Source: Closterium sp. NIES-65 (taxonomy: Eukaryota > Streptophyta > Zygnematophyceae > Desmidiales > Closteriaceae). From it: a DNA stretch of 64,000 bases. Each line of letters begins with the position of its first letter. Positions within the stretch are counted from its first letter, which is position 1. The stretch is from contig CANXME010002088.1 of assembly GCA_948144175.1 (NCBI GenBank), forward strand, positions 372,001 through 436,000. The letters run 5' to 3'. Positions 24,001 to 55,360 of this stretch are shown here, piece after piece. The notes below the pieces were generated by a model that searched no databases, was not told where the DNA came from, and worked only from the letters and a program-made list of their open reading frames with translations. The translations under genes and the position numbers were made by a program.

Positions 24001-27000
24001 GGGGACTACTGGGGGGGGACCTGGAACCAAGAAGAGGGGGGGTGGGGGGAGGGACGGAGTGCGGTAGGGGAAGAGGCGGTAGTAGGGTACCGACTCGTCG
24101 AACGTGACGTCCTGGGAGGACAGAACACGTCGAGAGGTGGGGTGGTAAAACTGCCACCCAGGGGCGTCGGGGGGGAACCCGAGGAAGACGCAGGGAGAAG
24201 CACGAGGGGACAGCTTGTCCGCAGACAGGTCGCGAACAAACGCCCGAGATCCCCAGACCCGGAACGCCGACGCATCGCCAACCTTCCCCGTCCACAACAG
24301 AGCTGGGGAGGTCTCCGGTCGAGAGACCCTGGGGTGGAGGTTGATCTGGTGCGCAGCGTACCTGACCGCAAACGGCCACAGAAAATGGGGAGCAGCCGCA
24401 TGCATCATGGACGTACGAGCGACGTCCATGACCATGCCAATGCGGCGCTCAGCGATCCCATTCTGCTGTGGTGAGTCCGGAAGCGTGAAGGTCTGACGGA
24501 TGCCTCGCACACGACAGTAGGTACTCAGGAGGGCCGAGGAGAACTCTCCGCCTCTGTCCGAGTGCAGACGCAAGACAGGGAAGTCAGAGCCAAAGCTTCT
24601 CCGAAGCTGAAGACGAGCTGCGCGGATCCAGTCGATCAACACCTGAGTGACCTCACCCTTGCTGCGCAAGGGGAAGACTGTGGTGTAACGCGAGTAGTCG
24701 TCAACCACTAGCAGGAAGTAGCGCTCCTGACCCTGTCCACGGACGCGGGCTGGGCCCCACACGTCCATGTGAAGCGTCTGCAACGGGGCCTCTGTCGGAG
24801 GAAACTGGGAGGAGTGAGGGGCAGCACGCTGGCGCCCCTCGACACAGGGGACACAGGCAGGGCCAGGGCCCGGAGGAAGGGGAGGGAGGGACCGGGGAAG
24901 ACCAGACACAAGGACCCGCGAGGCCATGCCTCTGAGCCGAAGCAGAGAGGGGTGGCCAAGGCGGTGGTGCCAGAGGAGGGTCTCGTGAGACAGACGACGA
25001 CACGAACAAGGGGCAGACTCAGGACCAGACCTGGACGCTGCAGCAAACACCTGACCAGACGAAGGGGCTCTACCAGACGCAGTACCTGGAGGAGAAGCAG
25101 TGGTCAGTGTGTACAGGCTCGATCCCGGCCGACGTGTAAACGTAGCCAGGTGGCGACCTGTATCCGCCTCCGTACAGTGGGTCACCCGCTGACGAGCAGG
25201 GGTGAACTGGTGGACACCTGCATCCTGGAGGTCAGCACCACTCACCAAGTTCGTCGAGAACGAGGGGAGGTAGAGACCAGTCAGGGTGCCAGAGGGGGCC
25301 GCCGGACACGGGAGGACAGTGGAGAAGCGAGACAGGACAGGCCCCCCAGAGGGGTCCGCCAGGGACACCGCAACCGGCCGACTCAGCGGCGTGAGAGTGG
25401 TGCGGTCCCTAAAGAAGGAGCGAGACGCTCCAGAGTCAAGGGTGAAGGTGTGAGAGGCCGAAGCCGACACAGTACCTGAGAGGGCGGACTCACCAGTACC
25501 TGAAAGCACAGACGCACTGGCACCTAGAGCAGCAGCTGCACAAGTACCTGACGCGGCAGTACCAATGCCCGGGTCAGGCGGGAAACACCGGTAACAGTCA
25601 TCCTCATCACTACCAGTCACAGCATACATAGCAGAGAGAATAGCATCAAAATCAAGATCATAAATAGCTACACCAGCCCTAGACAGCTCTCCCCAGCGGG
25701 GGATCTCAGCGGCCTCCGGAAACTGCTGACGCCAGGCGTCGGTCAGGCGGCCAAAGCAGCGACGGGCTGTGTGGGCGCCTCCACACCTCTCCCCTGCACG
25801 GTCACCAGTGCGAAGAACGTAGGGGCAGGGACCAAGCGCACCACCGCGCTGACGCTGCAAGTACCACTCACGGAGCTGCTGAGGGCCGGGGACGGTGCGA
25901 GAGCGCTGCTGCTGCTGCGGCTGCTGCTGTGGCTGCTGCTGCTGCTGCTGCTGGCGCTGACCACCCCCAGAGCTGCTCCGCTGGGACGAGCCACTCCGAC
26001 CCCCTCCTCCACCGCCACCCCCGCCTCCACCGCCACCCCCGTCGCCACCGCCACCTCCCCCACCAGGACCGTCGCTCCCACCGCTCCCACCGCCTCCTCC
26101 GCTACCACCTCCGCCGCCACCTCCGCCTCCACCGCCGCCACTACTACCTCCACTCCCGCCACCACCCCCCCCGCCACCCCCACTCCCCCCTCCACCCCCA
26201 CCGCCTCCTCCACCGCCCCCTCTGGCTCCACCCGCTCCCTTGCCCCCTTTGCCCTTGCCAGTGCGGCGTCTGCCACTGGGGGCAGACGCCGCGCCGACCG
26301 ACTCAAAACCGACGAGGTCGGCCGCAGCGGCAGAGGCGACAGAGGGCAGCAGGGGGGAGGGACCACACCCCTCAAAGATGGGGGTGCGAGGGTCACCCCG
26401 AGAGGCCCCTACAGCGACAATACTCTTCTCAGCCGCTAGCAGGGACTCCTCAAGGAGGTCGACAGTGAGAGTGGTGGGACAGACAGAGAGAAACTGGTCC
26501 CTAACGACACGAAGGGACTCAGGAAGACGGGTGACGAGAAAGTAGAGAGTGATGTACATGGGAGGAGGGTTCGCAGCGCGGAACTCAGCAGGAAGGGCAG
26601 CGCGGTAGCGGGTGTCACTAGCGCGGAGGTGGGTAACGAGGTCAGCGACAGTGGGAAAGGAAGCGAGGTCAGGGAAGAGAAACGGTAGCATGAGGCGGCT
26701 AAGGGTAGCGGAGGAAGGGGAGGAGTAGCGCGCAACTACAGCGTCGTACAAGGCCTGAGCGGTCTTGCACTGACTAAAGTGGGCACGCTCAGAGGAAGGG
26801 AGGTGGCGACGCACAGCAAGACGTGCAGCAGCATCGCGGGTCGCCCACTTGGAGCGAACGGCAGAGTCAGCATCAGCAGGCGGGGCAGGGACAGCGCCAG
26901 AGACAAAGTCAAAGAGAGAGACCTCATCTACCGCATCACACAGTAAGTACAGCTGCAGATCCTCGATCCAGACGGCAAAGTCAATGGCCCTCCCCTCAGC

Positions 27001-27030
27001 GTCAAAAGTGAGAACATTGGGGGTGGCCAT
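21028..27030 (-). CDS. Intact copia gag-pol polyprotein, 2000 aa
   Basis: A single frame encodes all copia functions for cytoplasmic particle assembly, reverse transcription and integration. Start chosen at 27030 (MATPNVLTFDAEG), as in A, D and F; the frame is open a little upstream but without ATG. Order: gag N-terminus; Gly-rich tract about 266-347; Cys/His motif C402-X13-C416-X3-H420-X4-C425, not a canonical CCHC knuckle; protease DSGAS 532-536; pre-integrase HHRLGHPS; integrase D756, D825, E861 (the last pair spaced D-35-E); Pro-rich and GGAEP repeat hinge about 1034-1150; RT with YVDD 1674-1677; RNase H with VDNK (D1921). The copia order PR-IN-RT-RH is clear. At 2000 residues it is longer than usual copia polyproteins because of the Gly-rich and hinge repeats. 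Activity is inferred, not shown. Confidence 0.95.
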   Translation of the reverse strand: MATPNVLTFDAEGRAIDFAVWIEDLQLYLLCDAVDEVSLFDFVSGAVPAPPADADSAVRSKWATRDAAARLAVRRHLPSSERAHFSQCKTAQALYDAVVARYSSPSSATLSRLMLPFLFPDLASFPTVADLVTHLRASDTRYRAALPAEFRAANPPPMYITLYFLVTRLPESLRVVRDQFLSVCPTTLTVDLLEESLLAAEKSIVAVGASRGDPRTPIFEGCGPSPLLPSVASAAAADLVGFESVGAASAPSGRRRTGKGKGGKGAGGARGGGGGGGGGGGGSGGGGGGGGGSGGSSGGGGGGGGGGGGSGGGGGSGGSDGPGGGGGGGDGGGGGGGGGGGGGGRSGSSQRSSSGGGQRQQQQQQQPQQQPQQQQRSRTVPGPQQLREWYLQRQRGGALGPCPYVLRTGDRAGERCGGAHTARRCFGRLTDAWRQQFPEAAEIPRWGELSRAGVAIYDLDFDAILSAMYAVTGSDEDDCYRCFPPDPGIGTAASGTCAAAALGASASVLSGTGESALSGTVSASASHTFTLDSGASRSFFRDRTTLTPLSRPVAVSLADPSGGPVLSRFSTVLPCPAAPSGTLTGLYLPSFSTNLVSGADLQDAGVHQFTPARQRVTHCTEADTGRHLATFTRRPGSSLYTLTTASPPGTASGRAPSSGQVFAAASRSGPESAPCSCRRLSHETLLWHHRLGHPSLLRLRGMASRVLVSGLPRSLPPLPPGPGPACVPCVEGRQRAAPHSSQFPPTEAPLQTLHMDVWGPARVRGQGQERYFLLVVDDYSRYTTVFPLRSKGEVTQVLIDWIRAARLQLRRSFGSDFPVLRLHSDRGGEFSSALLSTYCRVRGIRQTFTLPDSPQQNGIAERRIGMVMDVARTSMMHAAAPHFLWPFAVRYAAHQINLHPRVSRPETSPALLWTGKVGDASAFRVWGSRAFVRDLSADKLSPRASPCVFLGFPPDAPGWQFYHPTSRRVLSSQDVTFDESVPYYRLFPYRTPSLPPPPLFLVPGPPPVVPLPPQGPAPSGVSQVDAVEPVEVTGDSGAAAGAEPGGAESRGAEPGGAESGGAEPGGAEPGGAVPGGAVSGGTEPGGAEPGGAEPGGAEPGGTVPGGAVSGGTEPGGAEPGGAEPGGAVPGGASSHREPLSPLELREWFARRWRRAAGAGGSSAAEGAAATRPGGARPVGAGAAGSECSPGAGPAEYVGAEPAVGGPTDGAPGAAAGGSGASGGSAGGAAGVGAPAGGAGAVPAVSGVAARPRPYFVPLLQQVLGLTPPPPSLEGPQPVRSQPQLQPASPLPAPSPYAGPTGGLTERREPASRPASPVRTERASGRGSRQRPPPVPGTHRMSLRPSTAPLRAPLPSPPASSLPALADPESDSLRAASPTVTRLLATAVTDPSFESSAASALVTELVDFAARCRLDYAARLVAESESACPPSVGGECALGTDVLEDRQEEFQCLAAASPRLASVLLAPEGDPDALDIPTPRSYAEAVEGPYSSQWQAAMDAEMASWKSTGTYVDAVPPPGANIVSGMWIFRVKRPPGSPPVFKARYVARGFSQRQGVDYFQTFSPTPKMTTLRVLLHIAAQRDYELHSLDFSTAFLQGSLHEEIWLRRPPGFTGTFPPGTQWSLRRPVYGLRQAPREWHDTLRTTLAALGFAPSTADPSLFLRTDTSLPPFYILVYVDDLVFATADTAGLAYVKSELLKRHTCTDLGELRSYLGLQITRDRARRTITLTQSHMVQQVLQRFGFTYSSPQATPLPTRHSLSALPSDESVESSGPYAELVGCLMYLMTCTRPDLAYPLSILARYVAPGRHRPEHMAAAKRVLRYLCSTSGMGLVLGGRSPVVLTGHADASWADDQATQRSSQGYTFSLGSGSVSWRSTRSSSVLGSSCEAEIYAGAMAAQELRWLTYLLTDLGELPRSPPVLYVDNKAMLALCREQRLEHRTKHIALRYFLARELQQRGQLRLAYVASEANTADVFTKALAPCDHQRFCTQLGLVPVLPHLLSS

Positions 27031-28047
27031 AGCAGCAGCTGAAAGTCTCACCGGGATGGGAGAGTCGGGTAGGTCAGCAGCAGGCGGCTCGGGCTGCTCG
27101 TGCAGCTCAGGCGGCTCGGGCTGCTCAGGTACCGGGCGGCTCGGCTACTGCGGGGCGGCTCGGCTACTGCAGGGCGGCTCGGCTGCTGCTGGGCGGCTCG
27201 GCTGCTGCTAGGCGGCTCGGCTGCTGCTGGGCGGCTCGGCTGCTGCTGGGCGGCTCGGCTGCTGCTGGGCGGCTCGGCTGCAGTGCAGTGGCGGGGCCGG
27301 GACAAGGCCGGCGGTAGGGCCGGCGGTAGGGCCAGGTAGGAGCCGGCGGCGGGCCGAGTAGGAGGCCGGCGACGGGCCGAGTAGGAGGCCGGTGGCAGGG
27401 CCGTGTAGGAGGCCGGCGGCAGGGCCGTGTAGGAGGCCGGCGGCGGGCCGAGTAGGAGGCCGGCGGTGGGCCGAGTAGGAGGCCGGCGACGGGCCGAGTA
27501 GGAGGCCGGCGGCAGGGCCGTGTAGGAGGCCGGCGGCGGGCCGAGTAGGGGGCCGGCGGCGGGCCGAGTAGGAGCCGGGGCCGGGTCGTGTAGGAGGCCG
27601 GCGGCTGGCCGTGTAGGAGGCCGGCGGCGGAGCCGAGTAGGAGCCGGCGGCGGGGCCGTGTAGGAGCCGGCGGCGGGCCGAGTAGGAGGCCGGCGGCGGG
27701 CCGTGTAGGAGGCCGGTGGCGGGCCGAGTAGGAGGCCTGCGGCGGGCCGTGTAGGAGGCCGGCGGCGGGGCCGAGAAGGAGGCCGGCGCGGGGCCGCGTA
27801 AGGGGCCGAGTAGGAGCCGGCGGCCCAGGGCCGCGTAAGGGGCCGGCTCGGAGCCGCGTAAGAGGCCGGCGCGGGGCCGCGTAGGAGCCGGCGGCGCAGG
27901 GCCGCGTAAGGGGCCAGCGCGGGGCCGCGTAAGGGGAGAGGGCGACCCGAAGGGTCGCTAAAACAAAAAGGGCGCGCCTCGGGGGGGCGCGCTTCGGTGG
28001 GCCCAAAAAAAAAAAATTCGGTCCTGGAGGGACCTAGCTCTATACCA
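27031..28047 (-). repeat. GC-rich leader, hairpin and primer site of element E
   Basis: About 1 kb between LTR and gag. It holds GCTGCTGGGCGGCTCG-type units (27130-27280) and many GGCCGGCGGCGGGCCGAGTA-like units (27300-27800). Then come an A-run (28005-28016), a hairpin (28020-28034) and the primer site complement (28036-28047). No coding function. Confidence 0.8.
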
Positions 28048-35562: not shown

Positions 35563-38500
35563 ATGGACGTCACCCTTGTTGAATCTCGACCCCGCTCGCA
35601 CCATTCTCGGGAGCCGGGACATCGCGTCGCGCAAATGAACAGTCCTGATGTCTCGGAACAACAGGAGCGCGTGTCTCGTGCGGTGTCGCCTGTTCCTCCT
35701 CGGCCTGTCAAGCCACGTCATCGACGAAGCCAGTCCGACAGTTTCCAGTTCGACCCGACGAATCTGACTCAAGCATCTGGGACTCGGCTTCAGGCCGTAA
35801 CTTACAGCCATCAGTCTGGCGCGAGTTCTCGTGTCGGAGGTGAAAGCGAAGATGCTATTATAGAAAATGAAGTTGCGGAGGCTCCTATCCGTCATCGCCG
35901 TCGGCATTCGGGAGTCATTCCGTCTCCTGATTATTCGCCAGACCCGCAGCATTCTCCGGACGAAATGAAACACGCTCGACAACAGCCTTCTGACGGATAC
36001 ACCCATAACGCGTACAGTACGCAGCCTCGTTCGGGACGACAATATTCACCGCAGAAATCGCCGCCATATGCGGAGCTTAATCATAGTGCTGGAAAGGAGG
36101 TTAGACGTTCTCAATCAACCAATCAGCATCTGCCGCTAAAAACGTCTTATCCTGGATCCCCTAAATTAAGCGGCGAAACCTCTACCAGTAAAACCAGCAG
36201 CATCGACGGCTACAACAACCGCATCAGCAGCATCGACGGTTACAACAACCACAGCAGCGGCAGTCCTAGCAGGAGCGTAAACAGCGGCGTCAGGCGCGCG
36301 GGTGGAGGTGGAAACAGTAACTCCGGCTACAGTGATGGTAACAGCGACATCACCTCGGCTGGTTACAATAGTGGTTACGGCAATGTTACGGCTAACAGTA
36401 CGCATAACAGCATCAACAACAACGCGGTCTACGGCTTATCCGGTAGTAGCAGCTTCGGCGGTATTAGTGGCGCTGCTGGCGGGTATGCTTATTCACAATC
36501 AAAGAACCCGGTCGAGGGTAGCAAGCCTCCTAAGCCCATGGCGGCTCGTCACCGTCGAATCCGCTCTGAGGAGTTTGTCATCGCCGCGTTTTCCGCTGCC
36601 GACGCGACCGACGAGTTGCAAGGCCCCCCTGTAACGAACGCCGTCGCGTATCGCGGCGCGCCAGAGGCAATTAAAGCCAGCGGCTCGAGAGGCAAGCAGC
36701 CCCCGCAAGCGCATCCCCCGCGTAGTAAACCGCAAGAATGGCCGCTCGCTGCGGGAGCTGGACCGACCGGTCGAAGCAACCGGCCAGCGACGGCTAGCAG
36801 TGAGCAGACTGACGGTCCGGCAGGTTGGAGCCCAGTTCCCAAACACGCGATCCCGGAGGGGAACAAGACGAGACGTGAGGGGGAGGGGCCTGGAATAATC
36901 GGCGCGTTTAAGCACGGGCATAGGCGGAGCCAAAGCGGCGGACCAGGAGGCGTCGTGGGAGGGGGCGGCATAGCAGGAGAGAACCGCCGGCAAGTCAGTC
37001 CCCAACCGCGACCGTCAGCCGTCAGCAATCATTCTGACGGTCCGTCAGGAAGGCCGGGCAGCGCACCACGGAACGCCAGCCCCGAGGAGAAAGGCCGGCG
37101 CGAAGGGGCGATTGTGGGCGCGGGTGGGGGGGACGCAAGCGGAACGGGCAGAGCAGTAGGGCCGCGGAGCGGCGTGAGAAGGGGGGGGCGGAAGGTTTCC
37201 GCCATGGGGAATATCGAGGGGAGCGTGGGGGAGAAAAGGGGCGGGAGTTACGGGGAGAGATCGCGGGGTGGCGTAAGAAGCCCCGCTGACGATGAGTACG
37301 ACGGGGAGGCGGAGGATGTGCAGGGGAGGCGGGTGCGCAGCAGCGGAGGGGGAGCAGTTGGGGGAGCAGGAGGGGGAACAAGTGGGGAATACGGCGGGGG
37401 AGTGGTAGAGGGAGCGGCCATTTGGGATAGGCGACAGGCCCGCGCCAGCAGTGATAAGGAGCGGCAGCAGCAGCAGCAATCACAGCAGCAGCAGCAGCAG
37501 GTGCAGCAAGGAACCCAGCAGCACTCCCCTCCCCGCCACGACCAGCAGCAGCAGCAGGCCGCGCAGCCATTGCAGCAGCCGCTGCCACCCTTGGGAATAC
37601 CCACTGTCAGGCGGAATTCACGCTCTTATGACGGCGGCCCGTTAGACCTCAGGCGCTCTGTGAAAACCCCCCCTAAGAGCCCTGTGCTGCCCTATCTGGG
37701 CGGCGCAGGCGCAGCAGGCGGAGCGACAGGGGGAGCAGCAGGGGGACGGGGGGTGTCCGCCTATGGGAGCCCCTTGCGCAGCAGGCAAGGGGGGCAAATA
37801 TCTTCCCAAGGCGCGCAGAGGGGCTCCGCAGCAGGCGCAGGGGGGTATGCGGGGGGAATGGGGGGAGGGGGAGCTGCGCCTTCAGGAGGGCACTCTGTGC
37901 GCCCAAGCCCCGGGTGGCTGGCGGGCGCACCTGGGGGAGGGGCAAGCGGAGTCGGGGGAGGCGGGGCAGGGGCAGGGGGAGGGGGAGGGGCAAGTGGCGG
38001 AGGGGGGGGCGCGGCAGGGGGAACGCCTGTCAAGAAGAAGATGGGCCACAGGAGGTCTGCTAGCTGTGAAGCCTGGTTCAATCCAGAGGCGGGCTTTAAT
38101 CCCCATATGAGCGGCTTTAATTCCCCTGCTAGCGGCTCTAGTCCGCAATCTGGCAGCTCTAATATTCCAGGGAGGGGTTCCCCCGGAGGGGGCATGGGCG
38201 GAAGCCCTCCAGGCGGGGGGAGCCCCTATGCGGGTCCCCCCCGCGCTGGGGGAATGCGGATGGGGGGAGGGCCCGGGGGAGTAACCAGAGGAGTTGGGGG
38301 AGGGGGAGGGGGAGGGGGAGGGGGAGGGGGAGGGGGAGGGGGAGGGGGAGGGCTAGGCGGAGGAGGGGGAGGGGGAGGCGGAACAGGAGGGGGATCTGAG
38401 AAGGAAGGAAGGGAGGCGTTTACCCCAGGGGGGGGAGGGAGAACAGAGGTTGGGGATAACCCTGTAGGAAAGTCAAAAGCAATTCCAATCCAAAGCCCAC

Positions 38501-41500
38501 ACAAGCCCAAAATCGTCCTACCTTCTACCAGTCCCCACGCCAGCCCCTATGCTAGCCCCTATGCCAGCCCACGCATGGGATCCCCGCTAGTAGGCTCCCC
38601 GTTAGTAGGCTCTCCGTTACTAGGCTCCCCCATGCTGTCTCAAGTGAGTTCCCGTACCGGGTTTGTGACCCCCGGGGCTATGACTCCTGGCGGGGGAAGT
38701 ATGGTGGTTAGCCCCGGTACCTTAGCTGCGCAGGAGGATCGGGACCAAGCCAAGCTGGCCGAAATCCAGAGCATGTTTGCCAATTGGAATCACGGAACGC
38801 CGATCCCGTCCCCCAAAGCTGGAGCCTCGGCTCGGGCCGAAGCTGGCTTCCCGCTTCGGACGCCCCAGCCTAGCGACTACTACCGAATCGACGGGGGGGA
38901 AACGGAGGGGGGAGAGGGGATGGGCGAGGAGGAATCTGCAGCAGAGGAGCTAGGGCCGACTCGTGCGAATGTGCTGGGAGAGCCTTATTCGGATATCAGG
39001 AAGAAGTACAAACTAGCTGAGAAGGAGCTAGGGCGGGGGAACTTTGGAGTGATCCACGTGGGGGAGAATTTGCAGACTGGGGAGCAATTTGCATGCAAGA
39101 GCATCACCAAGGCTAAATTCGAGGTGAGGAGATATTTGATTTTGAGATTTGAGAAGCTGTTTGCCTGCAAGTTTATCACAAACGCCTTCGAGGTGAGCAT
39201 TGCTGCTTGCTTTCTTTCTCTGCTTGTTATAACATTTAGGCTTGCTCAAACAGAGCATTCCTTGTCCCACTATAGTTCGGCTATACACAGTACAAGGAGC
39301 TAGGGAAGGGGAGTTCTGGTAGGGTTCTTGTGGCAGGAAAGTTTGAGCGTTGCTGCTTGCCCTCTTGTTATAGGGACGCCAGGACTTTCCTCCACTATAA
39401 ACTTGCTGAACCTTCCCCTTCGTCCCCCTCTCCCAGTGCCGGGACTACGTCGAGGATGTGAGGAGGCAGGTCAGCGTGCTGAAGGCACTTTGACAAGTCT
39501 TCCTTCCCCCCACTCATTTTTCCGTTGCTCCCTCTGCCGCTAATCCCCTTCTATCCCCCAGTGCCGGGACTACGTGGAGGACGTGAGGAGGCAGGTGAGC
39601 ATGCTGGCGTCGCTTTGACAACTGTGGCCCCGCCCCTGTACCCCCTCTACTCTCTCTGCCTCTGACTTCTCCCTGTGGCCCCTCTGTTCCCCCAGTGCTG
39701 GGACAACGTGGAGGATGTGAGGAGGGAGGTGAGCGTGCTCGAGACGCTTTGAAAACTCACACTGCCCTTCACTCATTTCCCCTCCTGCTCCCTGTGTACC
39801 CTCGGTTCCCTGCCCTTTCTGCTCCCTGTGTACCCTCGGTTCCCTGCCCTTTCTGCTCCCTGTGTACCCTCGGTTCCCTGCCCTTTCTGCTCCCTGTGTA
39901 CCCTCGGTTCCCTGCCCTTTCTGCTCCCTGTGTACCCTCGGTTCCCTGCCCTTTCTGCTCCCTGTGTACCCTCGGTTCCCTGCCCTTTCTGCTCCCTGGT
40001 CCCCCCTCCCCTCCCCCCAGTGCTGGGACGACGTGGAGGATGTGAGGAGGGAGGTGAGCGTGCTTGAGACGCTAAGGGGCCATCCGTTTGTGGTGTCGAT
40101 CGTTGAGACCATGGAAGATGAAGATGTGAGTGGTAATACTTATTGCAAGGCCATTCATTGGGTCGTGTTGAAGATATGCCGGCCTGAGACACTCAGAGGC
40201 CATCCGTTTGTGGTGTCAATCGTTGAGACCATGGAAGACGAGCAGGTGAGTGTGGGCAGTGAAAGTTATGGGGCCATTTGTTGAGTCATGTTAGGAAGAT
40301 GCACAGGGTGAGACACTCAGAGGCCATCCCTTTGTGGTGTCGATCGCTCAGACGATGGAAGACGAGCAGGTGAGACTTGAAGCACACTCAAAGACACCCC
40401 GAGACACTCAGAGGCCATCCCTTTGTGGTGTCGATCGCTCAGACGATGGAAGACGAGCAGGTGAGACTTGAAGCACACCCAAAGACACCCTGCGACACTC
40501 AGAGGCCATCCCTTTGTGGTGTCGATCGCTCAGACGATGGAAGACGAGCAGGTGAGACTTGAAGCACACTCAAAGACACCCCGAGACACTCAGAGGCCAT
40601 CCCTTTGTGGTGTCGATCGCTCAGACGATGGAAGACGAGCAGGTGAGACTTGAAGCACACCCAAAGACACCCTGCGACACTCAGAGGCCATCCCTTTGTG
40701 GTGTCGATCGCTCAGACGATGGAAGACGATCAGGTGAGACTTGAAGCACACCCAAAGACACCCCGAGATACTCAGAGGCCATCCCTTTGTGGTGTCGATC
40801 GCTCAGACGATGGAAGACGAGCAGGTGAGACTTGAAGCACACCCATGGACACCCCGAGACACTCAGAGGCCATCCCTTTGTGGTGTCGATCGCTCAGACG
40901 ATGAAAGACGAGCAGGTGAGACTTGAAGCACACCCAAAGACACCCCGAGACACTCAGAGGCCATCCCTTTGTGGTGTCGATCGCTCAGACGATGGAAGAC
41001 GAGCAGGTGAGGCTTCCAGCACGCCCACAGAGGCACTGAGACGCTGAGAGACTGAGAGGCCATCCGTTTGTGGTGTTGAGTTGGTTTTTGAGGCACCCAA
41101 CCAAAGACAATCTAAGGCACTGAGGGGCCGGCCCTTTGTGGTGTTGACTTGGTTTTTGAGGCACCCAACCAAAGACAAACTAAGGCACTGAGGGGCCACC
41201 CCTTTGTGTTGTTGAGTTGGTTTTTGAGGCACCCAACCAAAGACAATCTAAGGCACTGAGGGGCCACCCCTTTGTGTTGTTGAGTTGGTTTTTGAGGCAC
41301 CCAACCAAAGACAATCTAAGGAACTGAGGGGCCACCCCTTTGTGGTGTTGAGTTGGTTTTTGAGGCACCCAACCAAAGACAATCTAAGGCACTGAGGGGC
41401 CACCCGTTTGTGTTGTTGAGTTGGTTTTTGAGGCGCCTCAAAAACAATCTCAATGGACGCACCCAACCAAAGACACTCTATGGCACTGAAGGGCCGGCCC

Positions 41501-44190
41501 TTTGTGGTGTTAAGTGTTGCGACAATGAAAGACGAACATGTGAGTGAGTGGTACTAGTTGCTGTTGGGGTATTTTCTTGAAGCCCACATTTCTTTGCGAT
41601 GCTTAGTAAGAAGCAGATGTGACACGCTGAGGGGCCACCCCTTAGTGAGATGCGCATACTGATGCTTCCCCACTCCCCCCTTCTCCCCCCCACCAGAAGG
41701 TGCACATAGTGATGGTGCTGTGTGGAGGCGGAGAGCTTTTTGATCCCGAAGGCAGGTGGCATCGTTGATTTCACCCACCCACACATTTTCCCCTCTCCCT
41801 CCCCCACACCCAACAGTTTTGAGACGTTTCAAAACTCTACTTTTATCACGTGGTTTATTTCACCCACCCGCCCATGTTCCCCCTCCCTCCCCCACATCCA
41901 CCAGGAGGTGCACATAGTGATGGAGCTGTGTGCGGGAGGAGAGCTCTTCGATCACATTCTCGACCGCAAGTACTACGGGGAGAGGCAGGCCGCGCGGGTC
42001 ATTCGCTCCGTGGTGGAGGTTCTTGCTTACTGCCAAGCCTGTCAGGGGGGAATTGTTTGTGAGCCGAGACTCACGCTCTCTCCCACGCACCCTCCAATCC
42101 TTTCCTCACCTCCTCGCTTCTCCCCCGTTTCCCCCTGTTCCCCCATTTTCCCCCTCTCCACTTCACCAGGAGGTGCACATAGTGATGGAGCTGTGTGCGG
42201 GAGGAGAGCTCTTCGATCGCATTCTCGACCGCAAGTACTACGGGGAGAGGCAGGCCGCGCGGGTCATTCGCTCCGTTGTGGAGGTTCTGGCCTACTGCCA
42301 AGCACGAGGGATCGTGCACCGGGACTTAAAGCCCGAGAACATTCTGCTCGTGTCGAAGAGGAGTGATACAAGGGTTAAAGTGATTGACTTCGGCATGGCG
42401 TGCATCTTGAAATCGGGTACGGTCCGTTTCGCCCTTGATTATCAAGGGTACTTTTTTAGGTTTTTTTTTCCCGATTATAAGCATAGGTGCAGTGTATTTT
42501 AATCTAGAGCCATCCCTCCCTCCCTCCCTCCCTCCCTCCCTCACTCCCTCACTCCCTTCCTAGGCGAGCGCTGCAAGCTGAGGGCAGGAACGCCCAACTA
42601 CATTGCTCCAGAAGTGATAGCGAAGAACTACGGAGCAGAGGCGGACGTGTGGAGTGCGGGGGTGATCCTGTATGTGCTGCTGTGCGGGCTGCCGCCCTTC
42701 TGGGGGGACACCACAGAGGACGTGTTCAAGAGCATCCTGTGGCAGGAGCTCGACTTCGAGACAGAGCCATGGCCCGTGGTCAGCACCGCTGCCAAGGACC
42801 TCGTTCGCCGCATGCTGTGCCGCAAGTATGAGCGGCGGATTACTGTCGCCGAGATTCTGAGTAAGTCCGGGAGAAATCTGGGGCTGAATCGGGCTGGGGA
42901 ACCTAACCTTACCCAACCGGACTAAACAACCCTTCTGAGGGGACACCACAGAGGACGTGCTGAAGAGCATCCTGTGGCAGGGGCTGGATTTCGAGACGGA
43001 GCCTTGGCTGGTTGTGAGCACTGCTGCCAGGGACTTGGTCAGACGGATGCTTTGCCGCAAGTACGAGCGGAGGATTACAGTGGCCTGAGATTCTGAGTAA
43101 GTCGGTGTTTGGGTTAGGTGGGTGGGCTCTATGCTTCTGAAGGGAAAATCTGGGGTGGAATCGGCCTGGGGAACCCAGGAGGGCGGGGGGGTGAGAGACA
43201 CCACAGAGGACGTGTTCAAGAGCATCCTGTGGCAGGAGCTGGCTCTTGACGCCCAGCCCTGGCCCGTTGTGAGCACCGAACTGAATCGCACTGAACCACA
43301 GAGGAGAAGGGGCGGGTGAGAGAGCATCCTGTGGCAGGAGCTCGACTTTAACACCCAGCCCTGGCCCGTTGTGAGCACCGAACCGAACCGCACAGAACCA
43401 CAGAGGAGGAGGGGCGGGTGAGAGAGCATCCTGTGGCAGGAGCTCGACTTTGACGCCGAGCCATGGCCGGTGGTTAGCACTGAACCGAACCGCACTGAAC
43501 CACCGAGGAGGAGGGGCGGGTTCAAGAGCATCCTGTGGCAGGAGCTCAACTTCGACACCCAGCCCTGGCCCGTTGTGAGCACCGAACCGAATCGCACTGA
43601 GCCACAGAGGAGGGGCGGGTTCAAGAGCATATTGTGGCAGGAGCTCGACTTTGACACCCAGCCCTGGTCCGTTGTGAGCACCGAACCGAACCGCACAGAA
43701 CCACAGAGGAGGAGGGGCAGGTGAGAGACCATCCTGTGGCAGGAGCTCGACTTTGACACCCAGCCCTGGCCCGTGGTTAGCACCGCTGGCAAGGACTTGG
43801 TCAGACGGATGCTGTGCCGCAAGTATGAGCCAACTGTTGCTGAGATTCTCAGTGAGTTGGTGTTGGGGGTGGGGTCATGAGCGGGTGGACTAGATGTTTC
43901 TGTGGGGGGAATTTGGGAAAAGGAGCGCCTGTCGATGCCCCGGGAAAAGCAGCTTCGACCTTTGCGTGGCTTCGACTCTCTCCTGTTCCACCCCTACCAC
44001 TCTCATTGCCTCCCTCTCTAATTGCCTCCCTCAGGATCTCTCTCATTCTCCCTCTTCGTTTCCTCTCTCATTTTCTCTGTCATTCCCTCTTCATTCCCTC
44101 TTCATTCCCTCTTCATTCCCTCTCCCATTCCCTCTCTCATTCCCTCTTCTGTTCCCAACAGAACACCCATGGATTAAAGCGTTAACTTAA
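35563..44190 (+). CDS. CDPK-like Ser/Thr protein kinase, no EF-hands, 1412 aa, 5 exons
   Basis: Model: exons 35563-39123, 40021-40125, 42170-42416, 42564-42860 and 44162-44190. All introns are GT-AG, and joining gives one frame ending IKALT-stop. Start is the first ATG (35563) of the long frame. Residues 1 to about 1145 are low-complexity and rich in Gly, Ser, Pro and Gln, with a Gly run near 910-945. The kinase domain is complete: Gly loop GRGNFG 1157-1162, ATP lysine K1179, HRD 1272-1274 with [11 protein letters not shown] 1295-1297, APE 1319-1321, and ending HPW. It resembles the CDPK/CRK/PEP-kinase group and should transfer phosphate from ATP to Ser/Thr. It has no autoinhibitory or EF-hand segment, so direct calcium binding is unlikely. 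Introns hold many partial exon copies (listed separately), so alternative splicing is possible. Paralogue at 46223-50433. Exon 2 choice is supported by equal length (105 nt) in the paralogue. Confidence 0.8.
39155..39192 (+). repeat. Partial copy of exon 1 end in intron 1
   Basis: Reads TTTGCCTGCAAGTTTATCAC... CTTCGAG before GTGAGC. It resembles the exon 1 end ([11 protein letters not shown] before GTGAGG), including the donor site. About 70 bases downstream of the real donor. Confidence 0.65.
39437..39756 (+). repeat. Three partial exon 2 copies with acceptor sites
   Basis: Copies start at 39437, 39562 and 39696, each after a pyrimidine tract and CAG. They repeat the first about 55 bases of exon 2 (TGC-GGGAC-ACGT-GAGGATGTGAGGAGG), then diverge at a CTTTGA where the real exon (40021) has CTAAGG. 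Used as exons they would bring an in-frame stop. Confidence 0.8.
39786..40000 (+). repeat. 34-bp minisatellite in intron 1
   Basis: Six uniform copies of a 34-bp unit (TGCTCCCTGTGTACCCTCGG plus TTCCCTGCCCTTTC) just before the pyrimidine tract of the real exon 2 acceptor. It lengthens the pyrimidine-rich 3' end of intron 1. Confidence 0.85.
40187..41016 (+). repeat. 91-bp array made from the exon 2 end plus donor site
   Basis: After one copy at 40187-40245, eight copies of the exon 2 3' half (GGCCATCCCTTTGTGGTGTC...GAAGACGAGCAG) follow, each joined to GTGAG. From about 40318 to 41010 they are spaced exactly 91 bases apart. The intronic filler between units (ACTTGAAGCACACCCAAAGA) is repeated too. 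The real exon 2 ends at 40125. Confidence 0.88.
41045..41545 (+). repeat. 68-bp array, more decayed exon 2 end
   Basis: Units spaced 68 bases (near 41117, 41185, 41253, 41321, 41389), each with CTGAGGGGCCACCCCTTTGT, the same exon 2 motif, plus GAGTTGGTTTTTGAGGCACC filler. A fuller copy with ACAATGAAAGACGAACATG and a GTGAG donor closes the array at 41482-41545. A further fragment is at 41624. Confidence 0.82.
41697..42040 (+). repeat. Two partial exon 3 copies with acceptor sites
   Basis: The copy at 41697-41755 is short and diverged. The copy at 41905-42040 is nearly the same as the first 136 bases of real exon 3 (42170 onwards; about 4 differences). Both follow pyrimidine tracts and CAG. 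Neither reaches the HRD motif, so splicing to them would give a broken kinase. Confidence 0.85.
42936..43860 (+). repeat. About seven partial exon 4 copies in intron 4
   Basis: The first (42936-43098) repeats the exon 4 second half through GAGATTCTGA and its GTAAGT donor, with a stop from a one-base change. Shorter units of about 100 bases (near 43200, 43322, 43422, 43520, 43620) carry AGCATCCTGTGGCAGGAGCT and CCGTTGTGAGCACCGAACCG. The last (43725-43860) again reaches an exon-end-like GAGATTCTCAGTGAGT. Confidence 0.85.
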
Positions 44191-49200: not shown

Positions 49201-50433
49201 GCTAGAAGAAGTGTTTGAAGATGAGGAGGTGAGGAAAGAGAATGATACGATGCACATTGACATTCACATGCACATTGTGAGGCACCTCACTTCTGTTGTA
49301 TGACCTGATCCTGAAATTGCCTGGCTTCAGTAAGAATTTGACGATGAGAGGGTGTGAGCACGAGGATGTACATGCACATGCACATGCGCATACAAGTGCA
49401 TGCACATGCATATCCACGTTCACATGCATGCACTCATTGATATGAACTTGCACGTGCACTTCCACGTACACATGCAGAATCACATGTGCATGCACTTGCA
49501 CAATGCATCATAACGGTTCCTTCTCATTCCAACCACTCACTTCCTCATTCACTCACCCTTCACCTTATCTTCCTATCCCCCCTTCCATGGCGTTCACATG
49601 GTGATGGGGCTGTGTGCTGGAAGGGAGCTCTTCCGACAAAAGAGGGTGTCCAAATCAACCTTCATCCTATGTTCCTCATGTGTCCCCCTCCCCCTCTTCC
49701 AGGGTGTTCACTTGGTGATGGAGCTATGTGTTGGAGGAGAGCTCTTTGACAAAATCAAGGAGAAGAAGCGATACGAGGAGAGAGAAGCCGTTCCAGTCAT
49801 GCGAACCATCCTCGACGTGCTCGCATTCTGCCACATGCGCGGCATCGTGCATCGCGACATCAAGCCCGAAAACGTCCTCCTTACAAGCCCCGACTCGATA
49901 ACGGAATGCAAGCTCATCGACTTTGGCGTGGCTACTGTGGTCAAGCCGGGTGCAAAGCCTCTATGTGACTTTGTCGGATCGCCGTTTTACGTCGCGCCGG
50001 AGGTGATAGAAGGGAGCTATGGGATTCCGGCAGATGTGTGGTCAGCCGGGGTCGTACTCTATGTGTTGATCTCAGGTGTTCCCCCTTTTTGGGCGCGCAC
50101 TGATGCTGGGATAATGAAAGCGATTAAAGAGGCAAAGCCGTGCTTCAAAGGGGAGGCGTGGCGTGATGTATCGTTGGAGGGAGTGGACCTCATAAGGAGG
50201 ATGTTGACACGGGATCCAAAGAAGCGACTAACAGCTCGAGCTGCTCTTGGTACGTCAATGTGTGGGAGATATTTGTTTATCTCCAAACCATACGATTATT
50301 GCCTGCCTTCATTCAGGTCTGTTCTTTAGCACCAACTCCCTGCCATCTCGCCGTGTCTCACGATCTCGTTTTTACCCCCTTCAACCCAAAATTTCGTGCA
50401 GAGCACTCATGGTTCTCCGTCTGGAACGACTGA
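46223..50433 (+). CDS. CDPK-like Ser/Thr protein kinase paralogue, 1101 aa, 4 exons
   Basis: Model: exons 46223-48844, 49124-49228, 49703-50249 and 50402-50433, all GT-AG, one frame ending EHSWFSVWND-stop. Residues 1 to about 830 are disordered, rich in Ala, Ser, Gly and Pro, with basic phospho-like motifs such as RTQSLD. The kinase domain is complete: GAGQFG 844-849, K866, HRDIKPEN with HRD 959-961, DFG 982-984, APE 1007-1009. It ends right after the HSW motif with no EF-hand or autoinhibitory region. Intron positions after the ATP lysine region and after the 105-nt exon 2 match the upstream paralogue, but here exon 3 (547 nt) equals exons 3+4 there, so one intron was gained or lost. Function inferred from the family: Ser/Thr phosphorylation. 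Substrates unknown. Confidence 0.85.
49304..49352 (+). repeat. Decayed copy of exon 2 end in intron 2 of the second kinase
   Basis: CCTGATCCTGAAATTGCCTGGCTTCAG... GACGATGAGAGG mirrors the exon 2 end (CCCAACCCTAACATTGCGCGG...GAAGATGAGGAG), with a stop inside. It is followed by GTGTGAG, a donor-like sequence. Confidence 0.65.
49361..49505 (+). repeat. CACATG-type microsatellite in intron 2
   Basis: About 145 bases of CACATGCACATG and GCATGCAC variants, alternating purine-pyrimidine. Confidence 0.75.
49584..49650 (+). repeat. Decayed copy of exon 3 start in intron 2 of the second kinase
   Basis: GGCGTTCACATGGTGATGGGGCTGTGTGCTGGAAGG... resembles the real exon 3 start (GGTGTTCACTTGGTGATGGAGCTATGTGTTGGAGG) at 49703. 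It keeps the pyrimidine tract but its AG is changed to TG (CCATGG). Confidence 0.7.
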
Positions 50434-52753
50434 GGCGCACATTGCCATGTGTAAAGAGAAAACAATACCGTAGGCTGCATACAATTCTGTTTCAGACTGA
50501 ACGAGAGTGTTCTCCACACTTAGTATTTCTACACGTGATAGTGCAGTGTAACTGGGTTGTTTTGCTCCTGTTATTGCAAATGTTTTGAAGTATGTATTGT
50601 TTATGGTTTTTTTTCTCCTGGATCCACACTTGTTCCACATTCCTACCTGTACAGTTATAATGGGGATATCAGTGAGATTTTCATACCTTACGTCAGCGTG
50701 CTGTCTTGTATATGTTCATGAAGAATGCATGGCTCGCCTTGCTCCTGCGTAAAGTGAACGAATCAACTACACCTGACGTTGCCTGACGCTTCCCTCCACC
50801 GCTTGTTGTGGCTGACGAGACGAAGCAGATGGCAAGGCAAGCAGGCGCACTCGTCCTCGCTTTGCGCAAAACCGCCGCTGGCCGTCACATTGCCACATGG
50901 GCGTTGGCACCAACAATTGATTGCTCTTCGGCTGGTGGCTCATGTTCTCTACAGACCCGGAAAGCGGGCACCACACCTCAGGCTCCGAGGGGCTGGAAGA
51001 TTTTGAAGGGTCAAGAGTGTGTTAGATGCATGAACGGTACAACATGGGTCTCTCTTCTGTACTTATCAATCCTCACTTCTGACTCCAGTTTTACGGGAAA
51101 ATAGGAGCCTAGAGCAGCTCCACACTTCATTTGAAGTACAACACAGTGCATTTCAGGCAAGCCTTCAAAACCAGGAGTGTCAGAAACAAACACCTTGAAA
51201 ACGTATTTCATTCAACTATTTGTCTGCTTTGTCACTTGCACCGGCCTCCTTCACCCGTGCTCTCACCTTGTTGCGCTGTACAGCACCAGTCGCGCCAACA
51301 GCTGTCACATACTGTACACCCTGTTTCTCGACCCTCTCACCTTGCGCGATTCGCTGCTACAGTGCGGTCAGGTGCCATAAACCGTATGGCTGAAACCTGC
51401 GGGCAAAGCCGCACCAGCTGACGGAGTGGTACTGGGGGCAAAAATTTTCTATATCGCTGTATACCCTTTTCAACCGTTTTGAAACGCTTTGTTAATGTTC
51501 TTTACCATGCAGCATCCTAGCTAACCGCTTTCTTGTGAATGTGCTTGTACCGTCGGTGATAAGACCATTTCAAACGTGGTGACGTTCTACAACCAGTGCA
51601 TGTTCTGCAACCAGATGCTCTGCTAGCGCGAAACAGGGTGTATTTGACCAATGTGCTCCTGATGGAACTGATGTGGGCGGGGCTTCTCGTTTTCAACCCT
51701 TGTCGCCTGTCACTGTATCTCCACTATCTGATACTACAGTTTACTTCTGCACACACACTGTGTAGAGCTACAAAGACTTTAGTGTGTTGATTGAGTGCTA
51801 GGGTTTCAAGCCAGGACCACCCCGTAATTTTGGGAGACTCTCGATGTACTGCTTCACAACAGTTCCATTATTAGGAAGATTACTGATGACCAGATATAGA
51901 GGTTTGTAACGTCTAGGTAAAATAGCAAAGTAAGTCCTCCCTCGTTGCTGAATATGTAGGGTCGTCTCGACATATTTTTCCTTGTAATAAAGGCATCGTC
52001 AAGCCTGCCCGGAACCGCTTTCGTGCCACCCATAATTCCCCATTCCGCCACCACAACCCCCTTTCCTTCCCCCCTCTCGTCCCAAACTACTTGTCTCGTT
52101 GACAGCTGCACATTACAACAATCACCCCACTGCGAGAAAAAAATCATCCCCTCTGTACACCTTTTTTCTCATCTTTCTCACCATCGCGCGCACTTGCTAC
52201 AGTGTTTGGAAGTAGCGGGCTGGTGCGATAACCCGGTTGCGGGGTGATGAAACAAGCCTTGGGCAGTAAAAAATCGTTAACGCTGATTAGCCTTTCCGTT
52301 TTGAAAACGACAGTACCATTTTATAAGGTTTGAAACCCTGACTGACCACCTTGGGTCAAACTGTCACTATAACGCATGTGATAGGACCTTCTTTGGTCCG
52401 TTGTGGTTACACTAGGCGTTGCGGTCAGTATAACATATGCCAGTCTATCGAGAAGAGGGTCTATTACCTCGCCTCGTGCGAATTCCAATCCAACACCCCT
52501 CCCGCTCCGAGACCCCCACCCACCCACCCTCTCCACTTCCATACCTTCCACTCCACCCCTACCCGACTAAGCTAGGTAGCTTGGGGAACTCTCAGCTTTC
52601 TTCCACAACGCCAGCTAATTAATTACCCCACCCTCCCTGATCGTATCCCATTCCTACCATCCCGTTAGATTACATCATCGTCCGTAGATTTTTACTAAGC
52701 TTCTGTGCTGTACAGTCTATATCTCCGCTCCATCTGTTTGCACTAACAGTGTC
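50434..52753. other. Intergenic, no feature recognised
   Basis: 2.3 kb between the second kinase and the next gene. Only short unconvincing frames. The left part presumably holds the kinase 3' untranslated region, the right part the 5' region of the next gene. Confidence 0.5.
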
Positions 52754-54874
52754 ATGTCAGCTGAAGTCGCCTTGCTGGTTGAGCGGCATTCCAGAGCTCA
52801 ACAGCCTTTCCCGCGCAACCCCGCAGAACCTCAGTTAGACTTACGGCCGAGTCAGTTCAACTCAAGACCAGATTTCTTACCATCTCGTTCGCCGGCGCCG
52901 CGTCCGCATCCATTCGACGGCGGCTCGCGCTCCGTTCGCAATTACGTGGATTCCACGGCTCCAACCGCATCAGCTCCCAGCTCCTGCACCGCCACGGCCG
53001 CCGCGAGCTGCGGCGCTGCTCCCGGCGAGAATTTCGGTGCCATGACTGAGTCTACCACGTCAGCATCGGCGTCAGAGTCGGCTACGTACCCTTCAGCATA
53101 CGCCCCTCGTGCCGCTCTCCCATCAGCGTATAGTAACCGGGGCGGCGCGTTGCACGGCAGAGCGGCTAGTTTTGACTTTATCGCTACTACTAGTAATAGC
53201 GGGCGGCACACGTCAGCATCGAAGAAATCCAACGTGGCTTTCGTGAGCCACCAGAAGCAGCCCTCAGAGCAGTTCGATACGATCGCCGCCGCTCGATTGT
53301 GGCTCCATTCTCCTTCGCTTGTCTCTAATGGAAGCGCTTCCGCATCTCCCGCTGCCGCCGCATCTCCCGCTGTATCTTCACGCGGCGCATTCCCGATTCG
53401 CCCCGACTCGCCGCAGAAGGCAGCGACTCGCGCATTATCCCCAGCGCGAGAAGCGCCGACAATGCCGCAGCGGGCCGTCGTGGCGGCAAGCGCCGTCACG
53501 CCGGCGATGCCGCGGCAGAGAAGCGCGAAAAGCACCGACAACTCCGCTCCTGGCGCCGTTTCTCACGCCGGCGGCGTCTGCCGGCCACGACCCTCACCGA
53601 GTCGGCGGACGGCACTTGGGATCGCCGACCTAATGGCTCTTCAGGCCGGCAGGTCTAAAGTCGGCGGCGACGGTCGCGGCTCGGGCGCCGCGGCTCGAAC
53701 GATATCGACCTCCCCAGCGGCGACTGTGGGGGTGGCGCTGCAGCCGGGATCTGCGCCGCGAACGACGACCGCGCCGCCCGCGATGATTGCGCCTACGGCG
53801 CGCTTGCCGCCGCAGAGTGGGGCACCGTTCTGTTTCCCCTCAATCAGCCAAATCAACGGCGCCGATTCTTCGCTTTCTGTGTCACCCCCCTCCGCATTTT
53901 CCGGTACGGGCGCGCAGTTTGCGCTGCGCAAAAGCCCCCCGCATGCTAACCCACGCGGAAGCGCAGCGATGAGGTTCCCCCGGTCCATGTCAGACGGGCA
54001 AGCCGTGCCACGTGGCAGCAGCAGAGCAAAGCCCGCTTTCCCGATAGTCGCAAGAGCTGAGACAAACAATGTGTCTGAACCTTCGGAGCCGGATCGCGGC
54101 AGCGCCGATTTGCCGAGCCTGCACCAAGCCTGCCCGCCGGGTTCGGCAGTGGTGGAGAGTCGCGGGGCTGCGAGGGTCGGGAGGAAGTCGAGGCTCGGGC
54201 AAGGATGGGATGGGAGCGGCAGCAACAGCAGCAGCCGGGACTCTAGCCCCTCTGGCAGTATCGACACGGCGAAATGTGATAATAATGAGTGTTCCGAAAA
54301 CAACGTCGAGGAAGCAGCTGCCCAATCGCGTGGGGGCTTGGGAATGGCGGGTGCGGGAATGGCGGGCGCGGGAATGGTGGGCAGTGGAAGGGGTCGCAAC
54401 ATCTCCAAACCATTCCCTGTCATTGCTATTCCAACCGATCAGAACTCCTATACCTCTCCTTCCTCTCCCACGTTCCGCCTCTCGCCACTTGTCCCCAGAG
54501 GCCCTTCCCCCTTATCCCCGCGCGTGTCTTCCCCCTGTGGTCCCTCCCCCTTGTTCAACCGCCATCCTTCCCCCCTCTCCCCCTGCATGCCCCCGCCAGT
54601 CTCCCCCTGGGGCCCTTCCCCTCTCTCCCCGCGCGCTTCCCCCCTCTCCCCTCGTCGCCCTTCCCCACTCTCCCCTAGAGGCCCCTCCCCTCTTTCCCCA
54701 AGAGGATTCTCCCCCCTGTCCCCACGCCGCCCGTCCCCCCTCTCCCCCCGTGTGGTAGCCCCGCGCCCTTCCCCTTTGCATACTGCCTCGGGCCTGAGTT
54801 CACTGAAAGAACATCACTCGGCTGGATCTTCCTTTGCCGCAGCCTCTGTAGGTTCGGATCGGCACATGATGCAA

Positions 54875-54938
<64 letters not shown>

Positions 54939-55360
54939 TGATTCAACAGTTTTTGCAAATGGGTGTAAATGATTTCAGGTCCGTATCAGCTCCAATGTCA
55001 GGAGCGGCAGCGGCAGCTGCAGCAGCAGTTTCAGCAGGGGAAGCTGCTTCAGCAGCATCACCACAAAGGAAATTCCCCAAGGGGAAACGGATGTTCCTGT
55101 CCCCTTTAGAGTGTTCTCCCATATGCTCTCCAGACCTCCAGCGTGTGATGAACCGAAACCTCGTATCAACTAGATCGGACAACAGTATACTGCCGAACGG
55201 GGCCGGCTGGGCTACGGAATCCGCGGCAGCAGCAGTTGCGTGTGGCGTTCCCAAGTCGATACTTGCGCTGAAGGATGATGAAGGTGCAATCACTCGCACT
55301 CGGTCGTTGGACCGTCGAGTTAGGTTTAATAGGGAGGTGGAAGTGCATGTTTTCTCCTAA
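52754..55360 (+). CDS. Disordered 868-aa protein with SPLSPR repeats, poly-Gln and C-terminal RVRF motif
   Basis: A single uninterrupted frame with no recognised domain. Composition is Ser/Pro/Ala-rich and probably disordered. A Pro-directed repeat block (PSPLSPR type, bases about 54490-54770) offers many Ser-Pro phosphorylation sites. A Gln run of about 23 residues (near residue 706-728, pure CAG) and an Ala run follow. The end is better structured in character: SILALKDDEG, then RTRSLD and RRVRF, with RVRF at 855-858, matching the (R/K)-V-x-F docking motif for protein phosphatase 1. A regulatory or targeting role for PP1 is therefore possible, but this is inference from a short motif. RTRSLD fits a basophilic kinase site and a similar RTQSLD occurs in the neighbouring kinase. 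ATG at 52754 is the first in frame; an unseen upstream exon cannot be excluded. Confidence 0.75.

Follow-up and report, generated by a model that had tools for sequence, protein, structure and literature searches.

Short copies of the edges of neighbouring exons fill much of the introns of a protein kinase gene (K1, 35563-44190, plus strand), and these fragments are probably relics, without coding function, of numerous short duplications that arose locally, each reaching from an exon into the intron beside it. The gene lies in a stretch of 64,000 nucleotides from Closterium sp. NIES-65, referred to here as the window; searches were extended to the 874-Mb assembly of 2400 contigs that contains it. 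The interpretation builds on the homology of the fragments to the exons, a strict rule as to the side of the exon on which they lie, duplication of the donor-side intron flank, tandem arrays, differences between haplotypes, and three copies without codon structure. Such fragments are common to many, not all, of the genes sampled in this genome.

The sequence of K1 is consistent with five exons separated by GT-AG introns. Predicted exon 1 (35563-39123) encodes a long low-complexity N-terminal part and the start of the kinase domain, and is followed by exons 2 (40021-40125), 3 (42170-42416), 4 (42564-42860) and 5 (44162-44190), all on the plus strand, with introns of 897, 2044, 147 and 1301 bp. 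The spliced model gives a protein of 1412 amino acids without an inner stop. Its C-terminal part matched Pkinase in Pfam with an E value of 1.9e-73 and the best PDB match was calcium-dependent protein kinase 3 (9vhu), which together identify a kinase domain of the CAMK/CDPK type. C-terminal EF hands are absent in the model, an absence that hinges on the predicted last exon; as the model ends four residues past HPWI, where the kinase domain closes, K1 is best described as having a CDPK-like kinase domain only.

Other features of the window were recorded beside this gene. Between 29687 and 30976 there are 61 copies of a 21-bp repeat (96% matches) adjoining a 15-bp array, and the long open frames present there on several frames are a by-product of the repeats. 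A further long open frame (52688-55360) stands in line with two kinase genes and had no Pfam match at an E value of 0.001. The stretch 21028-27144 and similar ones contain open frames which we take, from their sequence motifs, to belong to Copia-like retrotransposons, and which include long glycine-rich and repeat-rich parts.

In total, 31 sense fragments of the adjoining exons were counted in K1, 30 of them by BLAST of the exons against the adjoining introns and the last, an exon-1 end copy, by local alignment, its score being matched in 0 of 500 shuffles. They comprise two exon-1 end, three exon-2 start, 17 exon-2 end, two exon-3 start and seven exon-4 end fragments, differ from their exon by 3-25%, and account for 28% of intron 1, 48% of intron 2 and 50% of intron 4. 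The original prediction of more than 25 partial exon copies, in at least three of the four introns, is thus borne out for introns 1, 2 and 4. Local alignment revealed neither exon-3 end nor exon-4 start copies in intron 3, and no exon-5 copies in intron 4. The accompanying statement that the copies always include the splice junction is wrong, since 18 of the 31 do so: seven of the 17 exon-2 end fragments are without it, and five of the seven exon-4 fragments end at exon column 223-225. Where the junction is present, inspection by eye indicated that GT was kept at 13 of 13 donors and CAG at 5 of 5 acceptors.

All the fragments lie on the plus strand. In intron 1, the exon-1 end copy found by local alignment (39138-39192, donor GTGAGC) is followed by a glycine-loop fragment of exon 1 without the junction (39294-39345) and by three exon-2 start copies with the acceptor kept, namely C (39437-39480, CAG, 88.6% identity), B (39562-39614, 84.9%) and A (39696-39748, 96.2%), the last being closest to the exon. 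Intron 2 begins with exon-2 end copy 1 (40182-40245, 90.0%, donor GTGAGT), through which an open frame runs on from exon 2 (ORF 39733-40284). Then come eight exon-2 end copies in an array of 91-bp units (40309-41006), each with the donor GTGAG, six exon-2 fragments without junction within or bordering a 68-bp array (41045-41434), another end copy with donor GTGAGT (41491-41539, 75.5%) and a fragment without junction (41620-41647, 82% over 28 nt). Two exon-3 start copies complete this intron, B (41697-41745, 87.5%, acceptor kept) and the 134-nt copy A (41905-42038, 97.0%). Intron 4 contains the exon-4 end copy c1 (42921-43096, 84.4% from 42930, donor GTAAGT), which has one in-frame stop and a 1-nt insertion, fragments c2-c6 in a 102-bp array (43197-43683), all without junction and ending at column 223-225, and the end copy c7 (43726-43851, 81.5%, donor GTGAGT).

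The level of chance similarity was set by 100 dinucleotide shuffles of the K1 introns, in which the best match averaged 24.9 bits and reached a maximum of 34.6 bits. Consequently 23 of the 30 BLAST fragments, with 35.6-224 bits, are singly above chance. The other seven (26.5-33.7 bits) fall singly within the chance range; they are an exon-1 fragment that did prove significant when aligned locally (0 of 500 shuffles), the 28-nt piece at 41620, and five pieces of 28 nt each from the 68-bp array. Chance similarity was therefore ruled out as an explanation of the K1 fragments, with the qualification that the seven short matches are not significant singly.

On the donor side, the duplicated segments extend beyond the exon. 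Alignments, that of exon-4 copy c1 among them, showed that the intron flank had been duplicated along with the exon end: the flank of exon-2 copy 1 in K1 gave an identity of 0.79 against 0.44 for shuffled sequence, and that of an exon-2 copy in K2, the other kinase gene sampled in the window, gave 0.79 against 0.46, the coordinates used for the latter being off by one or two bases. On the acceptor side the flanks are rich in pyrimidines and low in complexity, and their identity showed no clear step over shuffled sequence; the three exon-2 start copies of K1 leave the exon at about one place and have the first bases beyond it in common. Tandem units of 91, 102 and 68 bp occur among the K1 copies. 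Intron 1 also contains a 34-bp array without exon sequence, which shows that tandem duplication is generally active there.

Many of the kinase matches listed occur on pairs of contigs, and a second copy of K1 (L009) was found on contig C1834. It is identical to K1 in the last 144 nt of exon 1 and in exons 2 and 5, and 99.6-99.7% identical in exons 3 and 4. The fragment families of K1 are present in L009 too, apart from the 134-nt exon-3 copy A (L009 being 265 bp shorter there) and one 91-bp unit; judged by unit spacing, the 68-bp array did not differ between the two haplotypes. In another kinase, exon-4 partial copies numbered 14 on one contig and three on the other (L021, L038). The contig pairs are of two kinds: the exons are identical in L018/L036 and L019/L037 and diverged in L017/L035 and L021/L038, the latter pairs showing about 4-11% exon divergence, mostly synonymous, as homeologs would.

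The architecture, originally described as a feature of K1, is real in that gene and not special to it. Among 15 genes sampled, 12 contained fragments: nine of 12 kinases (all but L015, L020 and L022) and three of three actin-related loci, one of which was chosen after overlapping profile ranges had been noticed. The kinases were K1 and K2 from the window, four best-matching relatives, and six (L017-L022) chosen from the list of kinase matches prior to any fragment search. Among further loci, fragments were found in one of five ubiquitin-conjugating-enzyme loci, read over 1.6-1.8 kb only, and in one of seven actin loci, so that they were present in 14 of the 27 loci examined and absent in 13. 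The six fragment-free actin loci are all on contigs C213 and C1739. Within about 3 Mb of contig C213 (L041, L042, L045-L047) lie several actin-like matches, divergent and made up of pieces with short gaps between them; their G+C content is 0.47-0.53, no paired contig was among the matches listed, and the contig may come from a different organism or be an unusual part of the assembly. In K2, the copies include a decayed exon-2 end copy (49299-49354, plus strand; 0 of 500 shuffles) and an exon-3 start copy whose acceptor CAG has become CAT (49589-49641, plus strand). In K1 and K2 the introns with fragments measure 474-2044 bp and are longer than those without, which measure 147-279 bp.

The position of the copies relative to the exon was counted over 38 exons of the 15 genes, using one contig per gene and E values below 1e-4; the exon ends of many sampled genes are ends of protein or profile matches rather than proven splice sites. 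This count covered neither second-haplotype and homeolog loci nor exon 1 of K1, K2 and some others, nor three anchors at actin loci (L053 a, L053 b2 and L055 b). Among 96 sense copies there were 27 of the start type, upstream of the exon, 36 of the end type, downstream, 32 internal and one full-length, defined as reaching to within 12 nt of both exon ends. All 63 edge fragments lay on the predicted side and none on the wrong side. Four antisense matches were found in all, one of them in this count, a weaker one in L016 (E 7.6e-4) and two at L055 b, where the match of 828 bases does not correspond to a single exon and yielded two more end-type copies. Repeated local duplication anchored at exon-intron borders, as first proposed, is supported by the donor-side flanks, the tandem units, the side rule and the differences in number between haplotypes.

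According to the relic model, each duplicated segment would have straddled an exon border, with one of its ends in exon and one in intron sequence. A duplication over the donor would create an extra exon end with its donor downstream of the whole exon, and one over the acceptor an extra acceptor and exon start upstream of it. The splice site next to the complete exon would still be available for splicing, so that the protein would be unchanged and the relic would stay in the lengthening intron, where it may multiply further into a tandem array. If the genome makes or keeps boundary duplications often, several long introns would come to be built largely of them. The anchoring at borders needs no special process, since exon sequence can be copied into the intron beside it only by a duplication that spans their border. 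From the DNA sequence we infer that splicing ignores the relics, and likewise the mutational mechanism of the duplications.

The differences between copies and their own exons have a marked codon pattern. At codon positions 1, 2 and 3 they numbered 142 of 2114, 109 of 2119 and 508 of 2090, in a tally over the copies of the side count in which array copies were counted repeatedly. For a neutral copy beside a constrained exon, simulation with branch lengths set by hand gave a non-synonymous share of 0.54-0.63 against 0.29 observed (P 0.0007 or less for the four nearest K1 copies). The idea that the copies are purely neutral and share one clock with the exon was thus rejected, and it follows either that synonymous sites of the exon turn over several-fold faster than the copies or that diverged coding sequence is involved. 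Constrained coding copies were in turn dropped on the evidence of three copies common to the homeologs L017 and L035, in which the differences by codon position were 7:5:8 as compared with 4:0:43 in the exons (Fisher P 2e-5); these copies are not under coding selection. The tested copies are therefore dead, with the synonymous excess on the side of the exon. Between L017 and L035 divergence was 0.189 at exon third positions, 0.055 in the copies and 0.143 in other aligned intron, difficulties of alignment having probably raised the last figure. The synonymous bias of the copy-exon differences counts against the relic model.

It is tempting to speculate, as a tentative possibility, that exons are periodically broken and then replaced by complete copies from a sister, homeolog or paralog, the halves of the predecessors flanking the present exon. 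The specific course of events, in which a broken exon would be repaired by insertion of a complete copy with its intron edges and its two halves would stay behind as an upstream start fragment and a downstream end fragment, is considered unlikely. A diverged coding template would account for the synonymous bias of the copy-exon differences, and synonymous differences between alleles or homeologs are clustered in three scans, the windows of which were chosen post hoc, with the data already seen. The P3 haplotypes, otherwise about 1% different, show eight differences in a 94-bp patch of exon 3 (L013 4511-4604; scan P 9e-4), seven of them at third codon positions; in exon 4 of L017/L035, 15 of 24 third-position differences fall within 63 nt (P below 1e-4), and in exon 3 of L021/L038, 16 of 24 fall within 72 nt (P 1e-4). 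The changes are clustered as if diverged coding sequence had replaced the original. However, a search with one patch revealed no donor: once the gene itself and its second allele were set aside, K1 was the best match, at 88%.

Comparison of haplotypes gave differences at exon synonymous and intron sites of 3/1015 and 23/4137 in K1, 3/703 and 4/753 in K2, 2/182 and 11/2696 in P2, and 11/179 and 20/1673 in P3, for which whole stretches were aligned as anchors were not found. Faster exon synonymous change at this short range was accordingly not observed in K1 and K2; it was seen in P3, where eight of the 12 exon differences fall in the 94-bp patch. The exon-replacement idea also draws on six exons in which the end of the upstream fragment meets the beginning of the downstream fragment within 0-11 nt, the respective ranges being 1-71/68-137 in L059, 1-128/128-290 in L017, 1-48/47-105 in L016, 1-68/62-156 in L019, 25-71/62-195 in L053 and 1-53/42-101 in exon 2 of K1. 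These are only six of the 13 exons with both kinds of fragment, and the complementarity, with P 0.024 for uniform breakpoints, was not significant by permutation (P 0.12); moreover, many exons have fragments on one side only. In a test for mosaic exons, the sites split two to two in exon 4 of L017/L035 included none consistent with the tree and five in conflict (seven when only one homeolog's copies were used), and the outcome for L021/L038 was mixed. Exon replacement is kept as a rival on account of the synonymous clusters and the meeting breakpoints, the latter with the reservation just given.

That the fragments are present or former alternative or decoy exons under protein-level selection, as the original prediction had suggested they might be, is improbable. 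The low pN/pS between copy and exon (0.12 pooled over the four nearest K1 copies), the splice sites kept in K1 and the frame that stays open from exon 2 through the first end copy would agree with such a role. For the copies that could be tested it is nonetheless unsupported: the three orthologous copies have no codon structure, some copies contain stops or frameshifts, and the K2 exon-3 copy has lost its AG. Ahead of those end-type copies of L017 and L019 that were inspected there is no pyrimidine tract with AG, and thus no convincing acceptor. Mutually exclusive exons would be expected to leave full-exon copies, of which there is one in 96. Aberrant use of the splice sites retained in the copies may nevertheless occur.

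An origin of the fragments in diverged paralogs rather than in the local exon, through unequal exchange or ectopic insertion, is similarly improbable. It would suit c1, which is coding-like in its divergence from K1 exon 4 and which, in a small tree, fell outside the cluster joining exon 4 to the nearest paralog, a cluster with a support of only 0.53. Yet among the 22 matches of c1 listed from the 874-Mb assembly, c1 itself and its other allele aside, the best was to the local exon, with 84% over 167 nt; a single higher identity, 87% over 100 nt, belonged to a fragment beside a paralog's exon 4 on both contigs of that paralog, and the edge fragments all adjoin the matching exon on the matching side. 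A live paralog as the source of c1 was rejected, there being no closer full-length match among the matches listed. In the closest paralog of K1 (L011, L012), exon 4 contains a TGA in frame on each of the two contigs, at oriented positions of about 5420 and 5510, and the gene may therefore be a pseudogene or be spliced differently. Lastly, assemblers can miscount tandem arrays, but an assembly artefact is hardly credible when the same fragments occur with small differences on two contigs, the copies differ from the exon by 3-25% and the window contains no N.

Gao and Lynch in 2009 reportedly described internal gene duplication as ubiquitous, and the present case resembles theirs in the frequency of duplication within genes. 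The nearest described case is the RdRp gene of potato, in which a tandem genomic duplication over an intron-exon boundary copied the acceptor, the pyrimidine tract and the exon start, with an exonic cryptic donor within the upstream copy (PMC4974935). The duplicated segment crosses the boundary in both systems. In potato there was one boundary event in one gene, and reads demonstrated that a spliced intron had been created (PMC4974935), whereas here dozens of relics on both sides of the exons of many genes are known from DNA alone. Drosophila has gained introns where exonic proto-splice sites were duplicated in tandem (PMC2891723), and the Rogers model also derives introns from tandem duplication (as cited in PMC4974935); an interplay of splice sites with local tandem duplication is common to these cases and the present one. 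There the duplicated segments are internal to exons and make new introns, whereas here existing introns grow. Exonize, which catalogues degenerate or partial intronic duplicates of exons and gives match classes in 20 genomes, deals with comparable exon-like matches in introns of the same gene (PMC12343006). Related reports concern Daphnia neointrons with internal direct repeats (PMC4202315), intron gain in Drosophila (PMC2809761), and the genomes of Closterium (PMC10407611) and Zygnema (PMC11096116). In the titles and opening lines of abstracts from a mainly open literature, with most subscription journals outside it, genome-wide arrays of exon-edge fragments were not described. The copies contain exon and adjoining intron in the original order on the donor side, and they lie in direct orientation on the side set by the junction; the K1-type fragments were rated as an extreme variant of boundary-crossing tandem duplication, and as new.

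In this alga, much intron sequence is visibly made of neighbouring exons, and intron growth could thus be read as a series of duplications. Gene finders may be misled by incomplete exon copies whose splice sites are good, and such copies raise the question of how the spliceosome chooses the right site among many near-copies. The system could be used to test intron gain by boundary duplication as it happens, and copies that preserve former states of an exon could allow neutral and synonymous rates to be measured. If exon replacement were true, the introns would be a fossil record of former exon versions, and the synonymous sites of the exons would turn over patchwise, faster than neutral neighbouring sequence.
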